A stretch of DNA of 64,000 bases, taken from assembly GCF_002214385.1 (NCBI RefSeq), contig NZ_CP014855.1, positions 1,488,001-1,552,000 on the forward strand, given 5' to 3'. The position numbers and the translations under genes are program-made. Positions 38,862 to 41,655 of this stretch are shown here, piece by piece (the first letter of the stretch is position 1; each line of letters starts with the position of its first letter). Source of the DNA: Thermococcus gorgonarius. GTDB lineage: Archaea > Methanobacteriota_B > Thermococci > Thermococcales > Thermococcaceae. The notes beneath the pieces are model-generated. The model had not been told where the DNA came from. It saw only the letters and a list, made by a program, of their open reading frames with translations, and did no database searches.

Positions 38862-39746
38862 TCAGTCCAGCAGTCCCGGGGTCGATACTATGTCGAAGTA
38901 CGTGAAGACCGGGCCGTCCTTGCAGATGTACTTCCAGCTGGTGCTCGTTCCGACGTTGCAGTGGCCGCATTTTCCTATTCCACACTTCATCTTCCTCTCA
39001 AGGGTTACGTAGATGTTCTCTGGCCTGTAACCGTAGTTGATGAGCGCCTCGAAGACAGACTTGTACATCCTCGGCGGGCCACATATGGCCACTGCCGTGT
39101 TCTTCGGGTTGGTGTTCGCCTCAGGAATGAAATTCTGAGGCCTTCCGTGTAGGCCGGGCCAGTCGGGATCGCGCGTAACGCTCTGGATTATCTTGACGTT
39201 CTCAGCTTCAGCTAAGTCTTTCATCGCCTCAAGCTCCTTGTAGAAGAGGAGGTCCTTCCCATAGCGGGCGGTGTTGATAAAGGTTATGTTGCCGTACTTC
39301 CAGCGGTTGTCCATTGCATAGAGGAAGACGCTCCTGAGCGGTGCCGTTCCGAGGCCAGCGGCTATGAGAAGCAGATCCATGCCCTCCCACTCATCAACGG
39401 GGAAGCCGTTTCCATAGGGACCGCGGACGAGGACTGTATCACCGGGCTTGAGCCTGTGTATTACTGTGGTAACCCTCCCGGCCCTTCTGATGCACAGCTC
39501 GAAGAAGCCCCTCCTCATCGCTGATGAACATATGCTTATCGGCACTTCTCCAACTCCGGGGATTGTAAGCTGGACGAACTGTCCAGGCCTGAAGGTCCAG
39601 TTTTCGGCGAGTTCGGGGTCTTCGAAGCGGAACAGGAAGAGCTTCTCTGTTTCGGTGAGCGGGTAAACCTTGAGCACCTTTACCCTGTGAAGGGTGTAAG
39701 GATTATCGTTGGGCATCATTATCTCCTTCGGGAGAACCATGCTCAC
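38862..39746 (-). CDS. hydG: Sulfhydrogenase I gamma subunit (FAD/NADPH oxidoreductase)
   Basis: 294 residues of the ferredoxin-NADP reductase fold. FAD site VPISICSS, Rossmann segments [13 protein letters not shown] and [12 protein letters not shown] for NADP(H), and a C-terminal 2Fe-2S motif CGIGKCGHC with a further C in YIC. The subunit exchanges electrons between NADP(H) and the Fe-S chain. Start codon at 39746 overlaps the hydB stop (4 bases). Confidence 0.95.
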
Positions 39747-40846
39747 AGCTCATCCCCCCTTATCTTAGTGGCGTAGGCGAATCCCTTCTTCGGAATCTCT
39801 TCGGTTATTTCAGGCGGACAGGACTTCTCCTCAAGCCCCATTATCGTGCGCAGGTTCCTGACAAAGCTTATGCCAGCCGGACAGAAGGCAGTACAGCGGC
39901 CACAGCCGACGCAGTAGCTTATACCCAGCTTCTCGTTGTAGGAATTCTTGCAGAGGTATCGGTTCCTGAAGCGGGCCTTCTTTGTCGGCCTGAAGTTGTG
40001 CCCGCCGGCGACAAGCCCATGGCTCCTGAACTGACAGGAGTCCCAGCGCCTCTCACGGTAGCCAGTGTTTCCGTCGAGGTTTACTATGTCCTGCACCTCG
40101 TAGCAACGGCAGGTTGGGCAGGTTGTGTTGCATATCCCGCACGCGAGGCAGATGTCAGCCTGCTCGTCCCACATGGGGTGCTCCATCTCGAGCTCAAGGA
40201 GATACCTGAGGTTGCTCCAGTCCTCGTGGTACTTGAAGGCATTACTCCTTTTGTTCTCGAAGTCGCGGAAGTTGCATATGTCCTCCGTCGTTACTTCCTC
40301 AAAGAGCTTGATGTTCTTGTCCACTATCCTGTGGCCGGTTGGTGTTCCAACGCGGACGAGCCATCCATCCGGAAGCTCGTGGAGGAAGAGGTCGAAGCCG
40401 TCGTCTGCAAAATCTGTCTCCCTGAGGTTGCAGAAGCAGTACTCATCGGGCATACAGCTTATTCCGATGATGATGCCCTTCTCCCTACGAGCCTTGTAAT
40501 ACTTGTCTGGGAGTTCGTCAAGGTAGATAGTGTCGAGAATCTTCAGCCCGTGAATGTCGCAGGCGTGGACTCCGAAGAGCACGAAGGGCTCGACGTCCTC
40601 AAGGACCTCTTTGTATTCGGCTTTCTTTATGTCGAACTCAAAGAGCTTCTCCCTCGGCTTGAAGAAGAACTTCTTCGGCGGCATTATCGTCCTGTTGTAG
40701 TGGAACTCGACATTCCTGACGTCGTCTATCTCCCTGAAGTCGTAGAACTTCTCTGAGATCTTAACCGGGGCATAGAGCTTACCCCAATCCTTGAGCCTTT
40801 CGAGGAAGGTGTAGGTGTTCTCGGCCGGAAGCTTAACGTACCTCAA
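39743..40846 (-). CDS. hydB: Sulfhydrogenase I beta subunit (Fe-S protein), first gene of hydBGDA
   Basis: 367 residues from TTG 40846. This start is chosen because AGGAGGTGG lies 6 bases upstream and because [12 protein letters not shown] matches the known SHI beta N terminus; the in-frame GTG at 40855 falls inside the ribosome site. Two 4Fe-4S ferredoxin motifs: [14 protein letters not shown] near residue 230 and [12 protein letters not shown] near residue 315. It links HydG to HydD. Expression should be controlled by SurR through the site at 40945-40961. Confidence 0.95.
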
Positions 40847-40928
40847 ACCAACCACCTCCTATGAACATAAGCGTACACGTGCACATTTCCGTTCCCTCAA
40901 TAGAGACTCGGCTGAGGACTAAAAAAGC

Positions 40929-40961
40929 ATTTTTAAACCCGAAAATTGTAAACCAAAGGTT
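40929..40961 (-). promoter_or_regulatory. hyd promoter with SurR-type site
   Basis: On the minus strand the TATA element GTTTAAAAAT lies at 40929-40938. Just upstream, 40945-40961 reads on the plus strand ATT-GTA-AAC-CAAAG-GTT, one mismatch from the SurR consensus GTT-n3-AAC-n5-GTT. Its position directly above the BRE suits activation of hyd by reduced SurR, as known from Pyrococcus furiosus. Confidence 0.75.
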
Positions 40962-41024
40962 GAAGATCGCATTTCCACGGAGAGAAGCGCGGACAAAACT
41001 TCTTAGGATACCCTAACTCACATA

Positions 41025-41094
41025 AACCTTTGGTTTACAACGGTCAGTTTCCTACCTTTTTTTGCCAAATTGAGCTTTGGAAAAGCGTTTTAAG
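41025..41094 (+). promoter_or_regulatory. mbh promoter with double SurR site
   Basis: 41025-41049 reads AAC-CTTTG-GTT-TAC-AAC-GGTCA-GTT, which contains the SurR consensus GTT-n3-AAC-n5-GTT in both orientations. The TATA element GCGTTTTAAG follows at 41085-41094. The first 16 bases (41025-41040) are the exact reverse complement of 40946-40961 in the hyd site. Confidence 0.8.
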
Positions 41095-41151
41095 TCGCGA
41101 GGGGAACTTATCATTGGGAGTAGCTAAAAACCGGAAGTTGGAGGTGGTAGT

Positions 41152-41655
41152 TTGCCTTTCATTGTCGCATTTATACTGAGCTACCTGCTGTGGCTTGTAC
41201 TGACTGCAGGGACGAACGGCCTGCTCTGGAGCACGCAGGAGCTGATAGCTGGACTGATATTTTCGCTGATAGTGGCCTATGCGACGAGAGATGTCATCGG
41301 CGAAAAGGCAGGAAGGTTCCTGAACCCGGCAAAGTGGATCGGCTTCATAGCCTATTCACCGGTCCTCTTCTGGGGAATGGTCAAAGCTAATCTCCAGGTT
41401 GCCTGGCTCGTCATAACCGGAAAGATAAGGCCCGGCATCGTCAGGGTTCCCGTTGACCTCGAAAACGACGCTCAGTACACGATACTGAGCAACTCGATAA
41501 CCCTAACGCCAGGAACGCTGACGGTGGATGCGTGCCCGGAGGAGAAGGCCCTCTACATCCACTGGATAAAGATACCAGAGGGAATGGAGAGGCCTGAGAG
41601 CTCCGAACCCGTTGCCGGGCCCTTTGAGAAGTGGGCGAGGAGGCTGGGAAGATGA
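41152..41655 (+). CDS. mbhA: Membrane-bound hydrogenase subunit MbhA (MrpE-like)
   Basis: 167 residues from TTG 41152; GGAGGTGG at 41140-41147 fixes this start. Two membrane helices, then the MrpE-type domain with PGIVRVPVDLENDAQYT and NSITLTPGTLTV. First gene of the 14-gene mbh operon, which oxidises ferredoxin, evolves H2 and pumps Na+. Promoter with a SurR site lies upstream. The last codons overlap mbhB (ATGATG). Confidence 0.95.
   Translation: MPFIVAFILSYLLWLVLTAGTNGLLWSTQELIAGLIFSLIVAYATRDVIGEKAGRFLNPAKWIGFIAYSPVLFWGMVKANLQVAWLVITGKIRPGIVRVPVDLENDAQYTILSNSITLTPGTLTVDACPEEKALYIHWIKIPEGMERPESSEPVAGPFEKWARRLGR

Follow-up and report, generated by a model that had tools for sequence, protein, structure and literature searches.

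Two separate archaeal promoters, each activated by SurR and placed back to back, very probably occupy the DNA between the divergent hyd and mbh operons of Thermococcus gorgonarius, as judged from sequence comparison across the Thermococcales. In the window (the whole 64,000-nt stretch of DNA that was analyzed), predicted SurR sites lie upstream of a predicted BRE/TATA element on both sides at a near-constant distance, and the same sites precede hyd and mbh throughout the order, regardless of operon adjacency. When elemental sulfur is absent, reduced SurR would occupy the sites of the AACCTTTGGTT type above each BRE/TATA, raising the transcription of hydBGDA leftwards and mbh rightwards; sulfur would oxidize the CxxC of SurR, SurR would leave, and both operons would fall together. 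The hyd promoter would have a single site close to its TATA box, and the mbh promoter a row of half-sites with a 14-bp period; this row, made up of two good modules followed by a degenerate one, could accommodate more than one SurR dimer. Here, we infer binding, activation, and the number of SurR dimers; the redox switch is known from other Thermococcales.

SurR activates from positions upstream of the TATA box and represses from downstream ones, and it comes off the DNA when sulfur oxidizes its CxxC (PMC12162507, PMC12401011). The addition of sulfur nearly shut off mbh transcription in T. kodakarensis (PMC4247193). An earlier note on this DNA proposed that one regulator could switch both operons together, which is consistent with the placement of both predicted sites upstream of BRE/TATA, a position from which SurR reportedly activates (PMC12162507).

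Flanking operons and the candidate regulator

The left operon is hydBGDA (sulfhydrogenase I), in which HydB, HydG, HydD, and HydA match NCBIfam equivalogs above cut-off. The right operon is mbh; for its large subunit, the best match is the alpha subunit of the membrane-bound hydrogenase in PDB 6cfw, and a homologue of its first gene was found in 93 of 94 Thermococcales. The hydB start is likely the TTG at 40844–40846, behind the ribosome-binding site (RBS) GGAGGTGG (40852–40859); the listed GTG start (40855; ORF 39743–40855) overlaps this RBS and is the less likely of the two. A second inverted repeat (I2) found in the window search proved to be merely the two RBSs.

Table 1. Genes and predicted promoter elements of the hyd/mbh region (window coordinates)
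Feature	Position	Strand	Evidence or sequence
hydB, sulfhydrogenase I beta subunit	39743–40846	−	NF040833 HydB, 807.7 bits (cut-off 750)
hyd leader dyad	40861–40886	−	ATGTGCA-n12-TGTTCAT; conserved across most of the order's hyd leaders
hyd TATA box (predicted)	40920–40926	−	sense TTTTTTA, BRE-like AAAAAT just upstream; conserved T-run
hyd SurR site (predicted)	40945–40961	−	sense AACCTTTGGTTTACAAT; core AACCTTTGGTT at 40951–40961
mbh SurR module 1 (predicted)	41025–41035	+	AACCTTTGGTT; AACn5GTT here in 62/78 distinct mbh promoters
mbh SurR module 2 (predicted)	41039–41049	+	AACGGTCAGTT; 14 bp downstream of module 1
mbh degenerate module 3 (predicted)	41053–41063	+	TACCTTTTTTT; 28 bp downstream of module 1
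mbh BRE/TATA (predicted)	41081–41094	+	AAAAGCG-TTTTAAG; conserved T-run
first mbh-operon gene, MrpE-like subunit	41152–41655	+	NF006245; TTG start behind RBS 41140–41147

The SurR gene adjoins pdo in the 1.67-Mb genome (NF047699, 398 bits against a cut-off of 250), and the encoded protein matches PDB 2qlz/PF0095, with CTEC as the CxxC at the redox switch position. The long SurR motif occurs 38 times in the genome versus 7 times for the reversed control, and the core AACCTTTGGTT 8 times (two of them in the hyd/mbh region) versus none. Several long motifs precede pdo, nsr, mbs/mbx-like, nfn-like, and hypA-like genes, the names being read from the proteins. Because it is encoded with its CxxC and its motif is in such excess, SurR is by far the best candidate regulator. 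The earlier assignment of the sites to the SurR type is supported.

The mbh promoter array

The mbh upstream regions of 85 Thermococcales genomes and the hyd upstream regions at 70 loci were compared, and distinct sequences were counted (78 mbh and 60 hyd promoters). The mbh side matches GTTn3AACn5GTT perfectly twice in overlapping positions, 41025–41041 (−) and 41033–41049 (+), as had been noticed when the site was said to satisfy the consensus in both orientations; these are the only two perfect long matches in the window, with 0.34 expected. Modules 1 and 2 together form these perfect long sites on both strands, and AACn5GTT is found at the module 2 position in 56 of the 78 distinct promoters. 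Across the Thermococcales, mbh promoters have the same core followed by half-sites 14 and 28 bp further on, and the T-run starts 63 or 64 bp from the module 1 start in 74/78.

When the hyd profile was slid along the mbh profile, the best fit scored 12.7 at offset +28, and lower peaks appeared at 0 (11.3) and +14 (6.6). The last of these is not significant by itself in this test, in which 99.9% of column-shuffled maxima fell below 8.1. Module 3 is a weak element, and its profile match is owed in part to the shared BRE/TATA; the T-run lies 35 bp from the module 3 start, as it does from the hyd core start. From these profiles, we read module 3 as the probable positional counterpart of the single hyd site.

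In many genomes, another long SurR motif is present 29–31 bp before the mbh start (L002, L005, L019, L027, L028, L030, L033, and others). This mbh-proximal motif lies downstream of the mbh TATA, from where SurR reportedly represses, and its copy in the window (41123–41139) has one mismatch; a short SurR motif is listed at about this position in T. piezophilus (PMC8595942).

Arrangement and spacing of the two sites

The hydB gene and the first mbh gene are divergent neighbors in 11 genomes, 10 of which have sites at both places, a few with core changes (e.g., L006, on the mbh side). In the remaining genome, L005 (G072), the hyd TATA/site block was lost through a deletion of about 46 bp, while hydB remains open. 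A new TATA-like AAATATTTAG is present at the junction, and the mbh array would be the sole SurR site for both operons; this genome is possibly a natural test of site sharing, or an assembly fault.

Both arms may alternatively form one bidirectional unit, with SurR dimers in contact or looping, selected spacing, and paired switching, which we consider unlikely. Several observations are consistent with such a unit: the edge-to-edge distance between the cores is 61–63 bp in each of the ten divergent genomes with both sites, the spacers of the three groups are mostly at shuffled-level identity to one another despite this constant length, the length of the mbh leader at these loci ranges from 59 to 86 nt, and the divergent arrangement is patchy, appearing at no fewer than three places on the mbhA tree. 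However, each site is present and conserved without a partner nearby, so that neither depends on the other for its occurrence; recognizable cores remain at both operons in G023, where about 7 kb separates them, and in G026, where they are far apart. At L090/L011 in G023, the two operons are divergent across this interval of about 7 kb, which looks as though a block had been inserted there or the adjacency had closed up elsewhere. Furthermore, the contrast between leader and spacer derives mainly from one genome (L054), and simple simulations of neutral indels gave equal constancy with a probability of 0.03–0.42, which weakens a strong claim of spacing selection and makes the hint from spacing a weak one. 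A gap of 63 bp is well under one DNA persistence length, which makes looping costly, and the analysis gave no positive evidence for the looping between arms that had been suggested. It is likewise improbable that in several Thermococcus lineages the adjacent promoters constitute a single spacing-constrained SurR element, in which the mbh array and the hyd site are occupied together and H2 production is coupled to H2 recycling.

The hyd promoter and leader

Read on the plus strand, the hyd site is ATTGTAAACCAAAGGTT, with one mismatch to GTTn3AACn5GTT, which bears out the earlier count. Under the published consensus, it counts as "mutated," as the SHI site was called in PMC8595942, and this tells against our reading. 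The AACn5GTT core is present in 59/60 distinct hyd promoters and strict GTTn3AAC in only 9/60, and the sequence here, GTTTACAAT, lacks the strict motif; the form without AAC is typical, with AAC at the corresponding place in only 1/60. The order-wide consensus is AACCTTTGGTTta-AAtTTt-GGGTTTAAAAAcgCTTTTTTA, and the hyd promoter carries AACCTTTGGTTnnnAA across about 90 Thermococcales, with or without an adjacent mbh. The one-mismatch hyd site thus appears to represent what hyd promoters conserve, rather than a decayed site.

The absence of strict GTTn3AAC from most hyd promoters could also mean that a different regulator binds the hyd element, or that this element is mainly core promoter, with SurR acting on the mbh side only; the authors of the T. 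piezophilus study considered another regulator possible (PMC8595942). This is very unlikely, as the hyd core recurs unchanged in the mbh promoter and ahead of other presumed SurR targets, and GTTn3AA is kept in 59 of the 60 hyd promoters.

In nearly all hyd promoters, the T-run starts 35 bp from the SurR core start. A TATA box at TTTAAAAA (40930–40937) was considered, but this sequence becomes TTTAGAAA in many genomes, whereas the TTTTTTA T-run is conserved order-wide; the TATA box is therefore better placed at the T-run, and the SurR site would lie 18 bp above it, not directly above as first described. The TATA region was also considered as a plus-strand promoter towards mbh; this was discarded, since hyd is preceded by that sequence even in genomes without an adjacent mbh. 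An AAACAAA-like stretch occurs about 10–17 bp above the hyd SurR core in many non-divergent genomes (e.g., L103, L117–L122) and is seemingly absent from the divergent ones.

Just upstream of the hydB RBS, the leader dyad follows the pattern ATG-n2-CA-n12-TGTTCAY. An operator of a wider regulon was rejected, since the pattern occurs once in the genome, here only, and a leader peptide over the dyad (judged by eye) was rejected because the dyad is one base longer in Pyrococcus-like genomes, which shifts the frame. An RNA hairpin in the hyd leader was rejected as well: folding was no better than for shuffled sequences (z 0.72), and there was no Rfam match.

Origin of the inverted repeat

The repeat search of the window returned 40946–40961 and 41025–41040 as exact 16-bp reverse complements, confirming the perfect inverted repeat of the earlier note, with 63 nt between the arms rather than 64. 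Eleven of the 16 bases belong to the common SurR core, 2 are the conserved AA, and 3 fall in the variable n3; since 13 of the 16 are accounted for by the shared core and AA, no special cause is needed for the match. The copies are inverted because each promoter carries its own site in the same sense, and the symmetry of the arms would thus be a by-product of the divergent placement of hyd and mbh. As one arm is the only hyd site and the other the most distal mbh module, the arms are not positional equivalents.

Among the divergent relatives, the cores persist at the same places in 10 of the 11 genomes, whereas the repeat is exact in only 3 (L001, L003, and L004); conservation therefore extends to the cores and not to the repeat. 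The idea of a mirror-image pair as the functional unit did not hold up: a large distance between hyd and mbh makes no difference to the conservation of either site, and the exact repeat is gone in most divergent relatives while the cores stay. A chance inverted repeat of no regulatory meaning, although compatible with an exact match in just 3/11 divergent genomes, is scarcely credible and is already contradicted by conservation, with the cores kept order-wide at a fixed distance from TATA; moreover, the only two perfect long motifs of the 64 kb (0.34 expected) both fall in the hyd/mbh region.

Comparison with known SurR-regulated promoters

The design is largely known, with some unreported detail, and the region is an ordinary but well-conserved SurR promoter pair. 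The literature searched, which was mostly without subscription papers, did not describe the adjacency of hyd and mbh or the 14-bp phasing. The conserved recognition unit of sulfhydrogenase I promoters may need correcting to AACn5GTT (AACCTTTGGTT) from GTTn3AAC, in which case the "mutated" sites are probably normal. Order-wide, mbh promoters carry a phased half-site row ending at the hyd-site position, which makes dimer number and activation strength directly testable, and the divergent neighbors provide a compact natural construct in which both promoters can be studied together.

The SurR-activated sulfhydrogenase I and mbh promoters of Pyrococcus and Thermococcus (Lipscomb 2009 and Yang 2010, as cited in PMC12162507 and PMC12401011) involve, as reported there, the same genes, regulator family, and GTT/AAC half-sites upstream of BRE/TATA. 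Relative to those accounts, the operons here are divergent neighbors, the hyd site keeps AACn5GTT without strict GTTn3AAC, and mbh has a 14-bp-phased row with a degenerate third module. In the motif tables of T. barophilus and T. piezophilus, both long and "mutated" motifs are placed upstream of mbh and SHI; among them are an mbh site of the GTAn3AACn5TTT type and the SHI site "gttttaacctttggtt" (PMC12162507, PMC8595942). Those tables treat the deviations as mutations, whereas in our order-wide comparison the hyd promoter and the module 2/3 region of mbh seem to have them as their conserved state. For T. barophilus, the clusters of Mbh and SHI are depicted as separate loci (PMC12162507, PMC8595942), whereas here the two are adjacent. 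The surR/pdo intergenic region is similar in that divergent genes of one regulon have SurR sites between them, but there one gene is reported to be activated and the other repressed (PMC12162507), whereas both hyd and mbh are expected to be activated.
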